Positions 50 to 11,282 of a stretch of 64,000 nt of DNA are shown here, in pieces (positions within the stretch are counted from its first letter, which is position 1; every line of letters begins with the position of its first letter). This stretch comes from Buxus sempervirens (lineage: Eukaryota > Streptophyta > Magnoliopsida > Buxales > Buxaceae). The notes beneath the pieces are model-generated. The model did no database searches, had not been told where the DNA came from, and was given only the letters and a program-made list of their open reading frames with translations. The stretch is taken from the NCBI GenBank assembly GCA_947561395.2, contig OX387188.1, positions 12,364,061-12,428,060 of the forward strand. Direction: 5' to 3'. Made by a program: the position numbers and the translations under genes.

Positions 50-331
50 TACCTCCAGGGAGAAACACTTGCCGGACTTTCTTCTAGTACTGTTCGAACT
101 CATGCCTTAATTTTTCCCTCTTGATTTTCTTTTTGTCATTTCTCCCATCTCCACCAATGGCACTTTCACATTTCCCTTCTCCGGTTCAGATTCGTTCCCG
201 TTGAGGGTATCAAAATTTTGGATTGAAGTTTTCTTTATTTCCCCTAAAATTATATATATTCCTATGCATTTTATGAAGCTTCTTACAAATTACAAATTTT
301 TTTTATTTTATTTCTTATTCTTGCTTTACAG
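50..331. other. Intron-like spacer between MYB-CC pieces
   Basis: This AT-rich stretch starts with a GT after the coiled-coil exon and ends with a pyrimidine-rich run and AG at 330-331. It fits an intron or joined intron pieces. I see no other gene in it. Confidence 0.35.
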
Positions 332-522
332 GCCAATTTCAATCCAGTCATCCCTTCAACTACACAACCAAGTTTCCATACTCAGCTAGATAAGCAGTGT
401 GAGAGACTTGCTAGAGTTGCTATTTCTGGTAAAACTCTTTCAACTCAACCACGGAAAATATGGACTCAGGAACTTCATAAGCATTTTGTTGAATGTGTAA
501 ACCGTCTCGGAGGTGTTAATTC
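332..522 (+). pseudogene. PHR1-like MYB-CC gene, exon with first half of MYB domain
   Basis: After the AG at 330-331 an open frame reads ANFNPVIPSTTQPSFHTQL, then RKIWTQELHKHFVECVNRLGG. The last part is the first half of the single GARP-type MYB repeat of PHR1-like factors, which normally reads like RMRWTPELHEAFVEAVNSLGG. The family has an intron shortly after LGG, and the second half of the domain is found at 9018. Here the frame passes into LINE-like coding sequence after about 522. The 8.5 kb between the two halves is filled with a LINE and pieces of two other genes. I read it as a broken gene. The assignment to MYB-CC rests on the domain wording alone. Confidence 0.7.
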
Positions 523-1736
523 AATTTCTGTACTTTTTAAGGAAACTACTGGCATTGAATTGGTTCTTGTTTCAGGACTATATGGTCCGAATTGCAATTC
601 TAAATCTGGGGTGATATGGGAGGAGCTGACGGCAACTAGTGGGAATGGTAGGATATCATGGGCCATAGGAGTTGACTTTAATGTCATTAGATTTCATCAA
701 TTTGTATTGGCTGTAGATATCTATCCAATGTGATGAGAGATTTCTTGGCCTTTATAGATCAATATGTATTACTCGATGTTATGCTTACAGGCACTAAGTT
801 TACTTGGTCAAAGAATCAACAATCCCTGGCATTTTTTATGTTGGATCACTTCTTGTTATCCTTGGAATGGTAGGAAAGATTCCTTAAATTTGGAGTTACA
901 GCCTAGCCTTGGCCCTCGAACCCTATCTGATCATTCGCCTATACTTTTATCTTGTGAGAATGAATTAAGGGAAGCATCACCTTTCAGATTTGAGGATGTT
1001 GGTAGAGGATGATTCATTTGTTAATCTAGTAGGGGAATAGTGGAAGGAGCTAGAGTTTCAAGGTTCACATTTGTTTGTTTTTTGTAGAAAACTTTGTGCC
1101 TTGAAAATGAATATTAGAAGTGGGATAGAGAGGTGTTTGAAAGAGTGGATGAGAAGCTAGTAGATTTGCTGGACAGAATAAAAGTGTTGGATCAACTTGA
1201 AGAAGATGAATCATTGCATTTCAATGACTGGGTTGAAAGGTAGAAATTGAGAGTTGACTATAAAAATTCAGTCTATTTGTTGAAGATCAGTTGGAGACAA
1301 TCCCAAGCTTTATGGCTCAAGTTGGGTGCTAAAACATCAGTTTCTTCCACTAATCTGCTTTTAAAGGTTGATGGTAGAATTCTTTTGAGGGAGAGGATAT
1401 CAAGAAGGTCACATCTGATCTCTATTGTGATCTCTTTTATGAGCAGAGGGAGGTGAGACCTTTCTTGGTGGGCTAGATTTTAATACTTTGACCGATGAGG
1501 AAAAAGATATGTTGGAAGGTCTACAATCCGAGGAAGAAGTATTAATGACTTTGGGTTAGTTGGCAGGTGATAATTCACCCATTCTTGATGGATTTAGTAT
1601 AGCATTTTAGAAAAGGTGCTGCAGATATATTCTGGATGATTATATGAGAGCAAACCATGAGCCTTTTTGTTACAAACATCTTGAGATAAGTTTGAGTGCT
1701 ACATTTATTTCTCGTATTTCTAAGAAAGAAGGTGCG
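523..1736 (+). mobile_element. L1-type LINE remnant (endonuclease to start of RT)
   Basis: Conceptual translation in several frames gives a plant L1 pattern. Around 560-690 it reads VLVSGLYGPNC...WAIGVDFNVIR, matching the endonuclease YGPN and GDFN blocks, here with V for the usual G in GDFN. Around 750-950 it reads LLDVMLTGTKFTWS and LSDHSPI, matching the later endonuclease motifs including SDH. Around 1285-1320 it reads SWRQSQALWLKLG, matching SWRQKSRxxWLKEGD. At 1480-1735 it has GGLDFN, PxLDGFSIAF and ISKKEGA, the opening of reverse transcriptase. It stops there, so most of RT is absent. Stop codons and frame changes are frequent and it cannot be active. It lies directly against the MYB-CC exon, probably as an insertion. 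Confidence 0.8.
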
Positions 1737-3326
1737 GCATACTTATTTATACTGGTCGGTCTAAATCAGTTCAGGTTGGTATGGACCAGTACATTTTTGC
1801 CATTTCTTTTAAGATAAAAAAACCTAAGTCTACCAGGAGAGAGACGAAGGAAGAAGGTGAATGGGAGAGAGGGAGAGTCAAGAGGGAGACAGAGAGTGGG
1901 AGAAAGAGATAGGATCAATTTCCTTCTTTATCTTGTTGTTTTCATCTTCTCTTTGTTCCCTCTATCTGTCCTTCTTTCTTCTGTTTCTCCTTTCTTCTGC
2001 ATTTTGTCTACTTCTCTAGGTCTTTGAACTTTATAGACACCACCCTCACCCCCTTTTTTCGCAGGGGGTGGGACTGACTTAAGGACCAATCCAGTACCAA
2101 ATTCAGGTATAAAATTTCCCTCAACTGGATATTCAAATAATCAATTGGAAGATGTTAACATCAATGATCAGAGGTATTGATATCCTATTTTTGATAATTT
2201 ATATACTATATCTTATTTATCTGTTTTAGTTAATTTTCCATTAAATATGCCTTTGCATACATTTTCATGAATTATTACCCGTGCATATGTATCAATCTCA
2301 TTGGATTTCCTTTTCTTTGGTAATGCAATGACATATAGCATTCAGTGTTAGATGGGCTTTAGAAGCATTTATTTGAGACTTAATGAATGTTATTGCTGAA
2401 AGGCTTACTTACGTATTTATTTTGGATTACTCACTCATGTAACTTAGATATATGATATATCTGTATGGTGTATCTATGCAGACTAGTTCCACACATGTTT
2501 AAAAGGAAGTATTTACTTTAATAAAAATAAATTGATAGCTATGTAACATTATATGTATTATGACATCAAGAGAAGTGATCTTACTTTTATGGGTATCAAC
2601 TTCTCATGAGGCCTAATAATTTGACATTACCATGACCCTCTGTAGGCACTTCACCAAAACTAACCTAATTACATTACGGTGTAGTGTAATTATGTACTTT
2701 TGTTTTAGCTTTCAGCAAAAGAAGCAGTTCTCTTTTATTAATGGGGAAAAATTTTCTATGAAAGTTTTCAAAAGCTAATATCTTCTAAACGATAAAACAG
2801 CTTGCAATACAATTGGGTCAATCATAAAACTCTTGTCCAGATCTTTCTTGTGATATCCAATTTATGTTCAACCATTGGTTTACTAATTTAATTGAAGTAT
2901 CTTTGAAATTTACTTTTATAATTGTATAGAGTAATATAAATGGATACCAAGCTTGATCATGTATTTGCCCTCTGCCAATATTTTAATAAATCAGGATCGA
3001 AAAAAATGTCTATTCAATTGATGAATGATATCTAGGATTGCAAACAGTCTGAATGTCACAGTGATTGGGTTGCATGTGCCATCTGCCAATATTTAATAAA
3101 TCAATGTCTATTCAACTGATGAACCATATCCTGGTTTGGAAACAGTCCAAATGTCACAGTGATTAGGTGTCCTTACCATTCATTCAAGGCCTGCCCATTG
3201 AAAGGCCAGTAATGCCATGGTCAAGGATTATAAGTCCAGTTAAAGAAGACTTGCATATGAATTTATAAACTACATATATGTTAGTTAATGTTCTTAAAGG
3301 ATGCAATGATTTTTATTTTTATGCAG
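1737..3326. other. Unassigned non-coding stretch
   Basis: There is a purine-rich then pyrimidine-rich segment at 1835-2060, a possible splice acceptor at about 2063, and a short open stretch to about 2172 whose translation (TNPVPNSGIKFPS) I cannot assign. From 2180 on it is AT-rich and intron-like. An imperfect tandem duplication lies at 2966-3171. It probably includes introns of the RRM gene whose exons follow. Confidence 0.4.
2966..3171. repeat. Imperfect tandem duplication, about 105 bp x 2
   Basis: Two adjacent units both carry a CTGCCAATATTT(T)AATAAATCA block, then TGTCTATTCAA(T/C)TGATGAA, then CAAATGTCACAGTGATT or a close variant. The first unit is about 2966-3070 and the second about 3077-3171. 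Several substitutions and a small gap separate them, so the duplication is not recent. Confidence 0.75.
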
Positions 3327-3732
3327 GTATACGACATATGGACCTGAATACGTCTACCCACAGGTCAAAGTTCCAAGTCATTAACATCATTGGAAATTCA
3401 ATTTTTGTGAGGGATAGATTGTGCATGAAGATATTGGATTAGTATCACAGATCTGGCTCTCTAACACTTTCCTGTGTTTTCATCTATTTCTCAGGGTGTA
3501 TACAGTCCTTATTTGGGTCAGCAATACTTTCAGATATATGGGGTTCCAGGAACAGTTAACCCAGCTGTTTATCCATACGGGCAGTTGGGTCAGACTCTTC
3601 CTGGCGGTCATGGATATGCGGCTGTTCAGGGTTATGCATTGCCAGGTCATCATGTTGTGCAATTTAGCGGGCCCAATGTGAATGGAGTAACCACAGCAAC
3701 CATTTCCACAATTCCAGCGCCCTATCCAACAG
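3327..3732 (+). pseudogene. RRM RNA-binding protein (ARP1/RBM24-like), two exons of the C-terminal region
   Basis: Exon one (3327-3363) follows an AG and ends at a GT, and reads YTTYGPEYVYPQ. Exon two (3495-3732) reads GVYSPYLGQQYFQIYGVPGT, then NPAVYPYGQLGQ, GGHGYAAVQGYALPGH and ending PYPTG. This Tyr/Gly/Pro/Gln-rich tail is typical of plant single-RRM proteins of the ARP1 / RBM24-38 type, whose RRM lies N-terminal to it. No RRM exon is present in the window. Exon two ends at GC rather than GT, which could be a GC-AG intron or decay. The final exon lies at 8684, displaced by the eIF2B insertion. Both visible exons are open, so the fragment may be young or was under constraint until recently. 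Confidence 0.75.
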
Positions 3733-4611
3733 GCAAAAACATTTTCTTTGGAACCTTTTTTTTTTTAAATTGATATAATTTCTTTTAGAATATGGGGTGA
3801 AAAACATCAAATCTTGACCAAGTCCAATACAGTGACAAAAAGGAAGCATGTTCTCGTCCATTGGAGACCCAATATAGACATTCAATGGATTCATAATTTT
3901 TACAATTGGATGTCTGCATTCATTAGGAGTGGAGTCAGGAATTTTTGTTGGGTTGGTAAATATTTAAAGCAAAGTCAAACGTTTTATATAACAGAGGCAA
4001 GATTCAGCTTTTTATGTATTTTTTGGCATGCATGTACCACTTGATTTATCACTTATTTTGACCCAAAGATGATCTGTATGTAGGATTTGATTGATTGATC
4101 ATTCTTTTTATCAGAACATGAGTTTTGGCTTTGCTATATAAAGTGTTGCTTTTTCAACATCAGCTCCCTCTGTGTGTCTGTGGTAAGCTGACATGATGAA
4201 CTCACTTGTAGCGTGTGTATTTTCATGTGGTCCCACATCTCATTTTAATGTTGAAGTCCAAACAATTTTATTGCATGGCAAAGAAACCTCCCATGAGTGT
4301 AAACTGCTGTCCATATCTAAGTACTGACCTCTTTCACATGCTTAAGTTTAAAGTCCAAACAGATATATTAATAGTGAAAAAGCTTCCTCAAATCTAGCCT
4401 CTCTTAGAAAACTAACAAACTTATTATTATTATTATTATTATTATTATTTTGAAGGGATGCTGCTATATCTCTGTTATATGTATATGTAATTATACATCA
4501 AAAGATTAAAAAAGTAATAATAAAAATAAAAGTATGAATGTGGCTTTATTTGGGTTGAAGTGTAGTCATAATTGCCTATCTAAAGTGTCATTTCTTAGTT
4601 TCTAAAATTTT
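3733..4611 (+). other. Intron of the RRM gene, left part
   Basis: AT-rich sequence between the second visible RRM exon and the left copy of the 103-bp direct repeat. It holds a (TTA)n run at 4421-4450. I see no gene. Together with 8604-8683 it would make a normal intron of about 1.06 kb if the insertion were absent. Confidence 0.6.
4421..4450. repeat. (TTA)n microsatellite
   Basis: About ten TTA units in the RRM intron. Confidence 0.95.
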
Positions 4612-4714
4612 TTTGTGCTTCGTGTTTCAGAATTGTTGGTACTTTTGATATATATGTGCATATTCATATGGTTGTATTAATATATGATAAAAATGATGAA
4701 AGTAAGAAAGGTTA
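4612..4714. repeat. 103-bp direct repeat, left copy
   Basis: Starts TTTGTGCTTCGTGTTT and ends AGTAAGAAAGGTTA. It matches 8501-8603 over the whole length, with a single difference that I can see (TTTCAG against TTTTAG). The two copies bracket the eIF2B delta piece. It behaves like a very long target-site duplication. Confidence 0.95.
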
Positions 4715-5988
4715 TTGTCAGTGAAAACTAAAATTGGAACATTCGGCCCAAAAATATTATTGCCTTAGATTGATGCTGAATACCTATAGGAAATATCAAC
4801 ATAGCTGAAACACATTCAAGTGTCTTAGGGTTGCCTTTCAGCTTAATAGTCACAATCAATTTTAGGCGTTGCCTCTACACTGGATTAGCAGCAGTGGTGA
4901 AGTTTGTATCGCGACATTGTTTAATTCCTAGTTGTTTGGAATGACTCAGGTCATTTTGTGTTCTAAAGCTGAATTGTGTTGTCTCTGCTAGTTTTATTCA
5001 TTGTCTGTATGGTTAATTAATGTATAGAGGAGGCCATTATGGGTATGAATGATTTCTTGCATTGGTCCTATTTATATCTGTTAGTGTACTGAAACAAACT
5101 TCATAGGTAAAGTGGTGAATGAAACTGACCTGTGATAGTTTGTCATCAAAAGATATGAAATAAGTAGATGGCAGCATCAGTCCACATTATGTCTCGGTGA
5201 TTGCATGCCTCCTGGCAATATGCTAAAACAAACTACCTGATTAAAGTGGTGTACGGAAAATACCCCTTTGATATTCCCATTAATAGAAAGGAAATACATA
5301 GATGGATTCTAAAAATCATTATAAGTTGCTGGTTAAAAGATATGCTGGAAATAGCCTTGATAGTCGCTTGTATCCTAATGATGGGCTAATATTGGCAATT
5401 GCAAGCTGAGATCTGTAATGGATGATCTGGATTCCAAAGAATTAATGAAAGGCTAATTTATGTAAGATATCACATAGCATTGAAATAGTCTTAATTTTCA
5501 AAATGGTTTCTGCAGCTTGCAACCTGAAAGACAAATTATTACTAAGCAAAAAATAAATGTAATTCTCAAAATTCACTAACACACATGAGCAATTATTCTC
5601 TGTTAGTTATTGCAATGACCCAGAGTCTAGAATATGTACTTTTAACTGACTTCAAATATTAGACTTACTTGCTTCTCATGTTATGTGGCATCTGTAGAGA
5701 AGCTTATCACTATATGGTCCTTGAATTGTGCGCTTGCTACTCCCAATATTCAACATGCTAATTGTTCAAAGCAGTTCCATCTCTTTTGATGCATTTATCA
5801 GAAGTAATTTGTAGATGAATTTGCTTATCTATTTCGAAAGTAATTTGCTAATAATGATATGTTTGAACCATATTCCATGTTGTCTTCTGAAATTTAGGAA
5901 TCCATATGGGTGTATTTTCTTTGACTTCTATTATTTTTCCAAATGAAGTACAGCATTTTATGATAAATGGGGAAACAAAAACTTGCAG
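4715..5988 (+). other. Left part of the inserted block, probably eIF2B intron
   Basis: AT-rich, no coding similarity recognised. It lies inside the 103-bp repeats and ends with a splice acceptor (AG at 5987-5988) in front of the first recognisable eIF2B delta exon. It most likely travelled with that exon as intron DNA. Confidence 0.45.
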
Positions 5989-8500
5989 AAAATGTTGAAG
6001 GATCATTGGTGAAAGTGCAAAAGAAAAGGTTGCAAGCTCAAGGCCAATGAAAGAAAAAACATCAAAAGCTGAAAGGCGTGCCCTTCAAGAGTCACAGAGA
6101 GCTGCAAAAGCTGCTGCAAAATGCATATTTTCCACCTGTTTTTTTTTGTAAATAGTAAAATAAGTTCTACACTTTTTTTTGGCATTCTTGGCCTTTAATG
6201 ACATATCTGCTTTTATATTTGTTTTTCTTTCTTTTCAAAAAGTCCGGGGATGCTTCTAAGAGCCATATCACCATTTGAACTATTTATATCTTTGTTCTTT
6301 TATGTTTTGTTAGCTCTGATTTATGTATATTTGCATGCTATTTCTTTACAGAATATTCTATAACGTCTATCTTTTATATTGGGATGAAAGTCATATTGCC
6401 ATGCTTAAACATGTAAGATTTTTCATCTAGGCAAAAGTTTCAATACTTTTTCTTTTCCAGGTCATTCTATAATTCTGATTTCTGAATAATTACGGCCTTT
6501 CCATGCAAAATCTATATTAAGGTCCCAGCTTGGCTTTGGAAGTTCCATAACATTCAAACACCATGAAAAGACAAGGATTTAAATAAGGGAAACAGAGTGG
6601 AATAGTAAGATGAAGAAATAATCTGTTCTTTACATGCAGTATAGCATGGGTGTGTGGAACTCCTGGGGATTCATCCTATTATAGATTAGGTATGAAAATC
6701 CCATCAGTTGTATTATAAACTTGCAAAGCATGTGTGATTAGTTGGTAATTGTAACCAAAATAAATTTGTAAAAACCAAGCCTACTGGGTCCATGGTTCTC
6801 AAATGAGTTTTAAAAGTACGGCTTAGAATGGGTTTGAGAGATTGACGGGGTGTTTGGTTCCATTTGGGGACTTTTTCTCAAATGAGTTTTAAAAAATACA
6901 CCACAAAGAGGAATTGGATGAGGACACCTAGGTCCCAAGAAAACTGCCTTTAACAACTTTGTTTTATTGTTATTGATGCTAGCATGAAAACATCAGATGC
7001 TGCTTCTTTTGAAGAGCTTTTGTGGGATTGATGCAACCCTTTTGTTGAAATGATTTCATAGGATCTAGTTCAACTCATCATCTCTATTTATCAAATAATT
7101 TCTAGTTCAAGTGTCGTAATGGTTGCTTAGTCCACCTTAATCTTTCAATCATGGTTTTTATGTTATCAAGTACCTCCTCTAATACCTAAATGCAAATTGT
7201 AGTTTGCAATTTGTTTATTGTGATCTCTTAATATAATCCTTTTTATTACCAATAAAAAAAAATTTTGTTTATTGTGATCTTTGATGTAATATGTGGTTGC
7301 CGTTTATTATTATTGTTATATACTAACACTAACCACTGTTTGATAGATTTCCATGTGCTCGATTTATTATCATTGTGTGTCCTAATCTTTTTATGATGGA
7401 TGATGTAGCTGAAGCAAGTAAGGCGGTTGGTGCTACTCCCTCTGGGGGTGCAACTTCAGTGAATGCCAAGCCGGCTAAAGCTGTGAAGCTAGCTTCGCAA
7501 AAGAAAGATAGTGCTCCTGCTACAAGTTGTGTTGCACCTTCTGAAAAAGGAGGTGATCAATTACCAGAAAAGGAAAGGAAAAAAGGTGTCCCTCAGCCAC
7601 GCATGCAATTTGATGATAAGTCCCGGGTTGAAAAGGCTAAAAAGCGGGCAGTAAAACAAACTGAAGCTAAAAATAGAGTTGAATTGTTTAGGCATTTGCC
7701 TCAATATGAACGTAGAACTCAGCTTCCTGACCTCGAGTCAAGGTTTTTACACCTTTATCCAGTATGCTGTTTACAAGATACTTGTTCCAGAACTTGGTCA
7801 ACTGTTGACACTCCAACTGGGGTCTGTATATAACCATAATATCAAAGCCAGTAAATTGAACTGAGTGGTTAGTCCCCTAGAGATTATCTTTTCTTCTTTA
7901 CTTTTTCTCTCACCTTAAAAGTACCCTATTTACTGTTATATTTCCAGTTCATGCCATGATATCAGAATATCTATATTTATTGAAAAAAAAAACAAATATT
8001 AGATGTACTGGTGGTTTTATTACCTTATGTTGAGATTGTTATTTTGTTAGATTCTGGAAATATACTAACCAGCTGCCTGTCTCAGGTTGGATTACAATAT
8101 TTGGCAGGAGATGTAACTGGTGGTAATGCTCGTTGTATTGCAATGCTTCAAGCGTTCCAAGAGGCAATTAAAGACTATTCCACACCACCAGAAAAAACTC
8201 TAATTAGAGATTTGACTTCAAAAATCAGTAGCTATGTTTCATTTCTGATTGAATGTAGGCCTCTTTCTATCAGCATGGGGAATGCAATCAGGTTTTTGAA
8301 AAGCCATATTGCAAAGTTACCTTTAACTCTTTCGGAATCTGAAGCAAAAGCAACTCTTCGATCAGATATCGATCGTTTTATAAATGAGAAGATAATTCTT
8401 GCAGACAAGGTGATAGTAAGGCATGCTGTAACAAAGATTAGGGATGGGGATGTTCTTGCAGACAAGGTGATAGTAAGGCATGATAGTAAGGTGATAGAAT
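5989..8500 (+). pseudogene. eIF2B delta subunit fragment (three exon pieces with introns)
   Basis: eIF2B is the nucleotide-exchange factor for eIF2; delta is one of its regulatory subunits. Three pieces are visible. 5989-6121 reads ESAKEKVASSRPMKEKTSKA then ERRALQESQRAAKAAAK. 7396-7779 reads QPRMQFDDKSRVEKAKKRA and RVELFRHLPQYERR...LPDLES. 8084-8480 reads VGLQYLAGDVTGGNARCIAM, DYSTPPEKTLIRDLTSKISS and ESEAKATLRSDIDRFINEKI. The last is the start of the conserved eIF2B alpha/beta/delta fold. The copy stops at VTKIRDGDVL, so the C-terminal catalytic-complex half is missing, as is the N-terminus. There is a stop near the start of the first piece and a frame change near 7745. Retained introns exclude a processed copy. 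The end is scrambled by a 28-bp duplication. Confidence 0.85.
8398..8482. repeat. 28-bp duplication at the eIF2B break end
   Basis: CTTGCAGACAAGGTGATAGT...GGCATG occurs at 8398-8425 and again at 8455-8482, followed by a partial third piece (GATAGTAAGGTGATAG). The second copy is directly fused to the right 103-bp repeat. This is the kind of local re-copying seen at repaired breaks. Confidence 0.9.
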
Positions 8501-8603
8501 TTTGTGCTTCGTGTTTTAGAATTGTTGGTACTTTTGATATATATGTGCATATTCATATGGTTGTATTAATATATGATAAAAATGATGAAAGTAAGAAAGG
8601 TTA
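8501..8603. repeat. 103-bp direct repeat, right copy
   Basis: Partner of 4612-4714. It restores the RRM intron on the right of the inserted eIF2B block. Confidence 0.95.
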
Positions 8604-8683
8604 GACTAAGATTTCCTTGTTAATTGTTTCAATATAGTAAATATCCAGTTCCAAGTAAGGCAAGTTAATTAGTTTTATCCGGT

Positions 8684-8779
8684 ATGGCAGCAGCAGGTCC
8701 AGCACAGCCACAATTTATAGTTCCTGCTCATTCTCCTCAGTTTACACAGGGTAGCGGTTCTGACCAAACGGCAGGTTGA
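8684..8779 (+). pseudogene. RRM protein (ARP1/RBM24-like), last exon
   Basis: The frame reads AAAGPAQPQFIVPAHSPQF, then TQGSGSDQTAG and a stop at 8777-8779. This is the expected C-terminus of the protein whose earlier exons lie at 3327-3732. It is 4.9 kb away only because of the inserted eIF2B block. An acceptor may lie within 8680-8695. The reading frame is open. The 3' untranslated region probably runs into 8780-8900. Confidence 0.7.
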
Positions 8780-9017
8780 GGGGTAGATTGAGATGAGTCA
8801 TATCTTGAGGTATAATACTGTTCAATGTACAAAATTTGCCCAACCTGACAATAGTTATGATTGAAGATTGTCATTGTTATTTTATTTGCAGGTCTCCTTA
8901 GATTGCAGCAGGACTAAGAGCAGCAGTACTGCTAATAGTAAGTAATCTTTGTATAGCTCTCACAACATAGCTGAGCATTTCTAAGTTCTGATAATCTTGT
9001 TCATTGCTCGAATTCAG
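8780..9017 (+). other. Spacer, probable RRM 3' UTR then MYB-CC intron
   Basis: AT-rich. Splice-like AG/GT pairs occur near 8892-8940. No protein similarity recognised. It ends with AATTCAG in front of the MYB-CC exon. Confidence 0.35.
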
Positions 9018-9288
9018 GGGCAACTCCAAAGAGTATTCTAAAGCTTATGGACACTGAAGGATTGACCATCTTTCATGTTAAACGCCATTTGCAGGTATTT
9101 ATGGCATATTAAACAACCTCCGATACCGTCTAACTATGAATCTTGGTCTTCCTTTAGTTTAATGAGACAATAATGGAACCTGTTCATGTGATTTGTAGAC
9201 ACATCGATTAGCTATGCATAGAGCAGAGCAGGATTCGAAGAATGTAAATTCATACCACTTAGTCGATTATGATGGTTCGAACGAGTGA
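9018..9288 (+). pseudogene. PHR1-like MYB-CC gene, second half of MYB domain (two exons)
   Basis: Exon 9018-9094 reads ATPKSILKLMDTEGLTIFHV then KRHLQ and ends at a GT. It matches the recognition-helix half of PHR1-like MYB domains (ATPKxILKLMxxEGLTIxHVKSHLQ). The next exon begins at 9199 after an AG and reads THRLAMHRAEQDSK, running to a stop at 9286-9288. In the family SHLQ is followed by KYR; here the serine of SHLQ is R and KYR is replaced by THR. No coiled coil follows. It pairs with the first-half exon at 332-522, and together they look like one colinear but interrupted pseudogene. Confidence 0.75.
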
Positions 9289-9507
9289 ATTGCACTTTAT
9301 TAGTATTTTGCTTAGCCGCTTAAACTCTCAGAAATCCAGCCTCTGGAAATATGTAGTAGTCTACCGCTGGGTTTACTTCAGAAAGTGGAGTGTTGATCCC
9401 AATCACAAACTCTTCTTGGGTGAGAGTCTCCATGCAAACTTTTTAATGTTTCTGTAATGATGTTCTAACTTTTGGAACAAGGATGCTTCTCGGGTATGTT
9501 TGATAAG

Positions 9508-9679: not shown

Positions 9680-9749
9680 AAAAGCCCACCAAAGGGGGTT
9701 CAGTGACACTAATATTGCAAATAGGTACAACACCATTGTAGTTTATTGC

Positions 9750-9934
9750 AGGTTATTTGATTTTAGGACCTATTTGGGCGTGGTCACCCCTTCCATTTTA
9801 GGGGAAGTGCTGTTGAAATTTAGGTTCATCTTTATTGATTCCAGGTTATTTGATTTTAGGACCTATTTGGGCGTGGTCACCCCTTCCATTTTAGGGGAGG
9901 TACTGCCGAAATTTAGGTTTATCTTTATTGATTG
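9750..9934. repeat. 93-bp tandem duplication
   Basis: Two adjacent near-identical units, each starting GGTTATTTGATTTTAGGACC and ending CTTTATTGATT, at about 9750-9840 and 9843-9934. Only a handful of differences, so it is fairly recent. Confidence 0.95.
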
Positions 9935-10200
9935 AGACTTAGAATTTTATTATTAAGAAATAGCTGGCATTTTTAATGTATTTTGGGCTATTTATTATTA
10001 TTAATTTATTTCCTTAGGGATTTTAAAATAAATCTAACTTGAAATTAATTAATCACTTTTAATTTAGTGTATAGGAAAACTCAATTTGAGTAATTGCAAA
10101 TGTTTGTTATAATTGAAAGTTTCATGTATGTCTTTTATACTGTTTATTTGTCATATAACATTCATGTTAAACTTATCAATTTTTTTATTTTTATTTTTTG

Positions 10201-10305
10201 CAGGAAGCAGGATGAATCAACTTGTGCATTATTGGAAGGCGCACCAGCAAGCGACGACTATAGCTGAAGAGCTATTGAATTTTTTTATTTTAATTACATG
10301 TATTT
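10201..10305 (+). pseudogene. Possible CACTA transposase tail fragment
   Basis: After an AG, a short open stretch reads SRMNQLVHYWKAHQQATTIA then EELL. It faintly resembles the region of plant Ptta/En/Spm transposase proteins where a YWKSxEA-like block precedes the C-terminus. It lies just inside a clear CACTA 3' terminus, which is where such an exon would be expected. The similarity is short and weak, so it could be chance. Confidence 0.2.
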
Positions 10306-10569
10306 GACACAATTATTAAATATTTTAATGACCATATCTTTTTAAATTAATTATTAGAGTGTACGTATGTTTTATGGGAATATAATGTATTAGCACTTTT
10401 ATTAATTGTTAAGGTTTTATTTATGTTAATTTGATCTTTCTTGTGGCAATTGAAAAGATTTGGCTGTAATTATAAGATGTTTCTACACGTGTATATATAT
10501 AGGTTAAGGACAAATTTACAGGTTAAAAAAATTTGGAATACAGGAAGGGCATCCAAATGTTTGGGCTTT

Positions 10570-11260
10570 AAAAACCGCCAGTAATACGTTTTACCGGCGG
10601 TTTTTATGGCCGCCGGAAAATAAGTACTCTTTAACCCATGTGCCGGCGGTCATAATAACCGCCGGTATATAGAATCTCCGGCGGTTTTCTAAGCCGCCGG
10701 CGAATGGGTTAGAAAAGTCGAACACATATGCCGACGGCCCTTATAACCGCCGGGATATCGAATTGCCGGCGGTTGTATAAGCCGCCGGCGAATGGGTTAG
10801 GAAGATCTAACCCATATGCCGGCGGCCACATTCACCGCCGGCGTATCAAATGGCCAGCGGGTTTCTAAGCCGCCGGCGAATGGGTAAGGAAAGTCTAACC
10901 CATATACCGGCGGCCACATTAACCGCTGGTAAATCGGTGAGACGTGTCCTAAAGATATGCCGGCGCGCACTATAGCCGTCGGTGTATATAATCTCCGGCG
11001 GTGTTTATGACCGCCGGCAAATGTGTGACAGAACTAGAACCCATTCGCCGGCGGCCATACTAACCGCTGGGCAACATGTTAGCCGGCGGTTAGTCTATCT
11101 ACTGGCTATTATTTGATTTGCTGGCGGGGATAATAGCCGCCGGGAAAACCGCCGGCAAAAACATTTGCCGGCGAGAGGGACCCTCGGCGTCCCTTTAAAG
11201 CGCCGGCAAATCATTTGCCAGCGGTTTTGATGATTTACCGGCGGTTTTACGGCCGTCGGT
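10570..11260. repeat. CACTA subterminal repeats, 86-bp period
   Basis: The word GCCGGCGG or its complement CCGCCGGC occurs every 20-40 bases. In 10640-10960 the array has an 86-bp higher-order period marked by AATGGGTTAG followed by AACCCAT (near 10706, 10792 and 10878). Each unit contains two opposed GC-rich words and can fold into hairpins. The remainder is more degenerate. Confidence 0.9.
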
Positions 11261-11282
11261 AAAAATGAATAATTTTGTAGTG

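Follow-up and report, generated by a model that had tools for sequence, protein, structure and literature searches.

We examined a stretch of 64,000 nucleotides of Buxus sempervirens DNA, hereafter the window, in which a fragment of an eIF2B-delta gene lies between two copies of a long direct repeat. Unless another locus is named, coordinates refer to the window, and negative positions lie upstream of it. The fragment occupies an intron of an RRM gene that the preliminary description of this DNA had taken for a resident host gene; the RRM sequence is instead a captured 3′ fragment, carried within what is, to judge from its sequence, a multicopy CACTA (En/Spm) transposon. The features at the insert are as follows.

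516–8934, forward strand: 3′ part of an ARP1-like RRM gene (from C12), acquired by capture and with an internal deletion at about 1739–1744; the eIF2B insert lies within it but does not belong to it.
4611–4714, forward strand: repeat copy 1 (target duplication), with the ancestral base kept at 4628; 4612–4714 is identical to six of seven other loci and 99% identical to the seventh.
4715–8457, forward strand: eIF2B-delta fragment, copied from C6:46657082–46660844 (minus strand), introns kept, both ends truncated.
8458–8499, forward strand: filler of 42 bp, stepwise re-copies of donor-derived 8396–8425, 8411–8421, and 8407–8416, then AA (longest-match segmentation); not in the donor at this place.
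8500–8603, forward strand: repeat copy 2 (target duplication), in which C has changed to T at a single position, in this copy only.

The preliminary description had reported a 103-bp direct repeat with one difference around the eIF2B block, and a repeat finder returns essentially the same structure: 104 bp at 99% identity (4611–4714 and 8500–8603), with a single mismatch at 4628, where copy 1 has C and copy 2 has T. Exact direct repeats within 4000–9500 reach 86 bp, whereas the longest ones in 100 dinucleotide shuffles had a maximum of 18 and a mean of 12.6, and the sequence contains no N across 4000–9000. With splice sites read by eye, the RRM intron spans 3733–8690 (4958 bp), and by the reading frame alone it would be of the GC-AG type. 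Subtracting the 3889-bp repeat unit leaves 1069 bp, in line with the intron of about 1.06 kb that had been expected once the block and one repeat are removed.

Across the genome (676 Mb in 247 contigs), the 103-mer 4612–4714 is matched at least nine times. The window accounts for two of these matches; of the seven outside it, six are identical to copy 1 and one is at 99%. Six of the seven other loci are copies belonging to one CACTA family, and the remaining one, on C12, is what appears to be the parental RRM gene. Each of them has the repeat once; the flanks meet at the same base in all, the end of the repeat running straight on into the sequence that starts at 8604 in the window. The empty site with a single 103-bp copy that the preliminary description had proposed to look for is thus present at seven of seven loci, as paralogous or parental sites of the same genome and not as orthologous sites in related species. 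Because the RRM gene on C12 lies outside the transposon and also has one copy, the single copy looks like the ancestral state. Recombination between the repeats could have removed an insert secondarily from the sister copies and would also leave a single copy, which is conceivable for an ancestor of the sisters; the single copy in the C12 gene, outside the element, argues against it.

The donor of the insert is a gene on C6, which retains its own copy and whose IF-2B exons extend past both ends of the copied part. This gene encodes eIF2B delta: its product matches the Pfam IF-2B model with E=1.5e-66, and the first eight of its 42 solved-structure matches are named eIF2B delta. A 249-residue query from the donor finds in the genome the donor itself, the window fragment (residues 1–125), and one weak match on C15 (31% identity), so that the C6 gene is the sole full match. 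Over 3743 aligned bases, insert and donor are set apart by 49 substitutions (1.31%) and by six gaps of 1, 2, 2, 3, 5, and 7 bases, every one a deletion in the window copy. Two of these gaps, one of 1 bp at 6022 and one of 5 bp at 7764, lie within sequence derived from exons (judged by eye against the donor frames), and therefore the eIF2B copy is frameshifted; a piece of the IF-2B domain (PF01008) remains recognizable at 8086–8457 (E=2e-20). Introns are present in the insert–donor alignment, as expected from the DNA-level copying that had been claimed for the insert. The first 137 bases of the insert (4715–4851) match many genomic repeats. The 104-bp repeat shares no 14-mer on either strand with the 30 kb around the C6 donor, and none of the nine 103-mer matches lies near it. 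Given this absence around the donor and the single copies at the other loci, we conclude that the target sequence was duplicated during the capture.

At the left join, the target ends in GGTTA and donor similarity starts with ATTG, a single A being shared. At the right join, donor sequence ends at 8457, within an open exon frame, and is followed by filler copied from the insert's own end: a repeat finder reports a 30-bp repeat (8396–8425 and 8453–8482), which is the local re-copying at the break end previously noticed as a 28-bp duplication. By longest-match segmentation the filler consists of pieces of 30, 11, and 10 bp, with successive overlaps of 5, 2, and 4 bp, and all three switches go backward, by 57, 13, and 11 bp. 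The last two bases (AA) have no assigned template, after which the target resumes with a run of four T in copy 2, compared with seven in copy 1 and the empty sites. With its three short-homology back-switches, the right join has a polymerase-theta-like filler. Repeated switching at short homologies is regarded in Arabidopsis as a signature of polymerase theta, usually with deletion (PMC10923293; here and below, articles are cited by PubMed Central number for those of their passages that concern the point at hand), whereas target sequence was gained at this locus. Transposon ends at the insert borders were considered and rejected, in agreement with the preliminary description: the best inverted terminal matches over 15 bases were 6, 7, and 8 for three choices of border, and among 500 random pairs 497, 459, and 332, respectively, scored at least as high; no CACTA ends occur there.

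We propose that a copy of the multicopy CACTA element that already held the 3′ RRM fragment would have broken within this fragment, and that repair would have inserted a 3.74-kb copy of part of the eIF2B-delta gene, which lies on a different chromosome. The 104-bp target duplication would be explained most simply if two long complementary overhangs, arising from nicks about 104 nt apart, had been filled in; before the last join, synthesis would have slipped three times between short homologies at the insert's own end, in the style of polymerase theta. The donor, the empty sites, the lack of the repeat near the donor, the nested order of the captures, and the templates of the filler are observed directly, whereas the break, the overhangs, and the polymerase are what we infer. 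Capture by repair, taking its fill-in and template-switch forms together, is in our judgment very probable; fill-in of staggered overhangs as the form that the repair took has roughly even prospects. Of the break-repair proposal in the preliminary description, the copying, the target duplication, and the local re-copying are borne out, whereas its fill-in of staggered ends has a backward template switch as a rival.

This other form of repair is replicative template switching, whether by microhomology-mediated break-induced replication (MMBIR), fork stalling and template switching (FoSTeS), or synthesis-dependent strand annealing (SDSA). Synthesis would have left the target at 4714, copied eIF2B, slipped back three times, and returned 104 bp upstream without any staggered break, so that the duplication would record the final backward jump. 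We hold it to be a tentative alternative, and the probability that we give it is a share of that given to capture by repair as a whole. All three switches in the filler are backward, and a return upstream is by itself enough to make a direct repeat; moreover, animal Pack-TIR elements (TIR, terminal inverted repeat) are ascribed to gap filling together with fork switching (PMC8277862). On the other hand, the final return lacks clear microhomology, having only the two bases AA and a shortened T run, and continuous copying of 3.7 kb followed by very short slips fits this form less easily. What probability remains goes to other routes; a free piece of DNA joined into the break, as opposed to sequence copied in place, would leave a similar scar.

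Several observations weigh against a break repaired with copied eIF2B sequence. The empty-site evidence covers paralogous and parental loci of the same genome and not the orthologous site of a relative. Only 1 bp is shared at the left join, and the final return to the target is without clear microhomology. The donor intron contains a 138-bp fragment of a dispersed repeat, and the left edge of the insert falls within one base of this fragment's own edge, a coincidence that break repair does not predict. Among 13 copies of this dispersed-repeat family that we viewed, donor similarity begins at the insert edge in seven and 11 bases inside it in six. The seven have an AT-rich tract at the edge, and since at least four of them share sequence beyond it (by eye), we rejected the edge as a terminus of the insert; the coincidence may be due to chance or to entry into the template at a fragile tract. 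Finally, the nesting places the RRM capture before the eIF2B capture and makes the eIF2B insert the youngest part, yet its divergence from the donor (49/3743) is not the smallest, being no lower than that between the window copy and a sister copy (33/3254) or between the window copy and the RRM parent (34/3284). The insert–donor and window–sister distances do not differ significantly (Fisher p=0.27), and the insert–donor value could reflect allele differences at the donor or chance. Clock dating of the events was rejected, since the values for the repeats (1/104), the insert and donor (49/3743), and the element (33/3254 and 34/3284) lie too near one another to put the events in order.

As origins of the insert, transposition, retroposition, and circle re-integration are poor fits. 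In the circle model of Woodhouse and colleagues for Arabidopsis, a circle formed through flanking repeats enters a target that shares the repeat, and long direct repeats do flank many moved genes there, often matching the target site (PMC2869330). The model needs the repeat or something similar at the donor, whereas no 14-mer is shared in the 30 kb around it; we regard it as refuted in this genome and attach very little probability to it. It is equally improbable that a LINE retroposed unspliced eIF2B RNA and produced an exceptionally long target duplication in doing so. Direct repeats flank the insert and a LINE-like fragment (by eye) occurs in the RRM segment, but introns are kept, filler was copied from the insert's own end, and the insert ends lack an A/T run (none of 8 or more in 8440–8520, none of 6 or more in 4700–4740). 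A target duplication of 104 bp is also very long for LINE retroposition. The retained introns had already been held against retroposition, and both the donor alignment and the lack of an A/T run bear this out. Least credible of all is the fusion of two neighboring CACTA elements around an eIF2B gene (the Catoni model), which two plant sources favor for Pack-TYPE elements (PMC8903248, PMC13317346), given that the insert lies within an RRM intron fragment without CACTA ends at its borders and that a search of the 30 kb around the donor for the terminus, allowing up to 2 mismatches in 14 bases, turned up just one match, a poor one.

Turning to the host, the element and the remnants of an older capture comprise three further features in the window.

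303–515, forward strand: left half of a MYB-CC (PHR1-like) gene fragment that the RRM capture interrupted; 303–400 and 470–515 match −2375 to −2278 and −2241 to −2196 at 80–85%.
8930–9451, forward strand: right half of the MYB-CC-like fragment, matching −2197 to −1681 at 73%.
10564–11282, reverse strand: CACTA right subterminal repeats and terminus, with CACTACAAAA at 11273–11282.

The window and the six sister loci (c1 and c3–c7) share sequence from more than 5.4 kb upstream to about 9754 and again up to the right end at 11282. The right terminus, CACTACAAAATT, ends at 11282 and is also found in all six other copies, each with different flanks (one mismatch in c4). A CACTA-type terminus was seen at the right end only: neither a left terminus nor a 3-bp target duplication was found in the 17 kb upstream that were checked, and the 27 genome matches to TAACACTACAAAATT include none just upstream of the window. 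Upstream in c4 lies a DUF4216 domain (E=9.8e-27), the corresponding 17 kb of the window copy having been checked in two frames only. A Transposase_24 match in c4 scores 25.4 bits, below the cut-off of 28.7, and the same protein is above the cut-off for FAM76. DUF4216 and Transposase_24 are domains that we take to be markers of CACTA elements. Copies c1, c3, and c5 are identical across 3258 bp, and c1 differs at 2 positions from c4, 2 from c7, 21 from c6, and 33 of 3254 from the window copy. The three identical copies lie on three chromosomes (C10, C9, and C6, respectively), the mark of a very recent CACTA burst.

The captured pieces in this family have different origins. The C12 locus matches the RRM segment only (519–1744, 1739–4714, and 8500–8934, at 98–99%), and because RRM exons (RRM_1, E=4.3e-14) lie upstream of the matched segment there, C12 appears to hold the parental RRM gene. 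About 5.6 kb of C12 are absent at 1739–1744 in the window, and a LINE-like stretch (by eye) from the C12 intron was carried along within the RRM segment. The MYB-CC-like halves could be recognized because the element has a second copy at −2375 to −1681 (73–85% similar). The name is based on a 24-residue piece at 9023–9094 that matches PHR1 chains (E=5.4e-07); the myb_SHAQKYF model gives 27.2 bits, below its cut-off of 29.3, and a Pfam search of the piece returned no matches. Five sister copies (c1, c3, c4, c5, and c7) carry an independently captured stretch of about 4.6 kb (L030:1214–5790 in c1) that is 97–98% identical, in two pieces, to C10:38906830–38911478. It matches CCT zeta chains (CCT6, T-complex zeta; E=8e-06) and stays below the curated cut-offs (NCBIfam E=5.1e-08, Pfam E=0.00016), as expected for single exons. 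This CCT6-like piece is absent from c6 and the window copy, and it replaces about 206 bp of the element as present in c6.

That five of six sister copies hold another captured piece, CCT6-like, favors repair as the route. With eIF2B in the window copy and CCT6 in the sisters, related copies have captured different genes at different internal points, one capture with duplication of element sequence (eIF2B) and one with deletion (CCT6). The preliminary description had spoken of gene movement; the host being a CACTA element with several captures and the eIF2B copy being truncated and frameshifted, the event is better called gene-fragment capture. We posit, with confidence evenly poised, that this family gains host genes mainly through successive break repairs inside the element, first MYB-CC-like sequence, then RRM from C12, and then eIF2B-delta in one lineage and CCT6-like sequence in the sister lineage, and that such breaks may duplicate, conserve, or delete element sequence. 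If this is true, plant CACTA elements would have a route of capture separate from neighbor fusion, with its intermediates kept in one genome.

Related processes have been proposed before. Wicker et al. in 2010 reportedly described break-repair patching with filler genes in grasses, Vaughn and Bennetzen in 2014 are said to have described patch-mediated tandem duplication at paired nicks, abortive gap repair reportedly goes back to Rubin and Levy in 1997, and the neighbor-fusion model for Pack-CACTA elements is attributed to Catoni et al. in 2019. That CACTA elements capture gene fragments is itself well known: examples are Tgm-Express1 of soybean (PMC1947982), the 140 events on wheat chromosome 3B (PMC4290129), and Chenopodium, where capture is ascribed by citation to abortive gap repair (PMC8978399). 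Papers on wheat point to the repair of breaks, either where CACTA elements inserted or with genes serving as filler (PMC4290129, PMC3445842), and a study in rice counted the filler left where plant transposons had excised (PMC4423477). Our locus resembles the grass patching cited in PMC4423477 and PMC3445842 in that a gene fragment from elsewhere serves as break filler, and differs in having its break inside a transposon and in presenting scar, donor, and seven empty sites within a single genome. With patch-mediated duplication, for which fill-in by Pol alpha-primase at paired nicks with 43-bp overhangs is described (PMC8355091), it shares the duplication of overhang sequence at a break with complementary ends; here, however, the copies are held 3.8 kb apart by foreign sequence and their 104 bp exceed those overhangs. 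In animal Pack-TIR elements (PMC8277862), an internal break is likewise repaired from external sequence with microhomology at the joins, whereas we describe a plant CACTA element with a gain of 104 bp rather than a gap and a donor on another chromosome. Abortive gap repair shares copying and template switching within a DNA transposon, and is given for CACTA as a likely mechanism without a resolved scar in the passages concerned (PMC8978399), whereas the scar can be read here. Tgm-Express1 is also a CACTA element with several intron-bearing gene fragments, whose acquisition was little known according to its authors (PMC1947982); one capture is resolved to the base here. Neighbor fusion of Pack-CACTA elements (PMC8903248, PMC13317346) likewise brings genes into CACTA, and our locus lacks its terminal fusion structure.

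Events of this kind are thus already known. What is unusual about this plant CACTA capture is that a single genome preserves its donor, its empty sites, and its scar in readable form, and no plant CACTA capture with a long flanking duplication was found in the relevant passages of the open-licence literature searched. The route by which plant TIR transposons capture genes is disputed between neighbor fusion (PMC8903248, PMC13317346) and gap or break repair (PMC8978399, PMC3445842, PMC4290129), again as stated in the passages cited. Because donor, target, empty sites, and scar can all be read, the break-repair route can be tested directly for a plant CACTA element, and scars of this type could be counted throughout the family. 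The locus shows one way in which transposons can acquire pieces of host genes.

A few other observations concern the element as a whole. Other places in the genome share its upstream part and are absent from the 103-mer matches. A direct repeat of about 0.9 kb (92%; −3520 to −2632 and 9716–10573) brackets the gene-carrying part, and both of its copies include tandem units of about 93 bp. The upstream stretch includes a 2.3-kb high-copy repeat (L047:4422–6770), 98–99% identical at 38 or more other places, which looks like a piece of a recently active retroelement. Upstream of the part represented in the window, copy c4 carries a TAF15-like fragment (L048:2704–3570, minus strand; named by eye) with a partial RRM (PF00076, E=3.9e-06), which is perhaps another capture.

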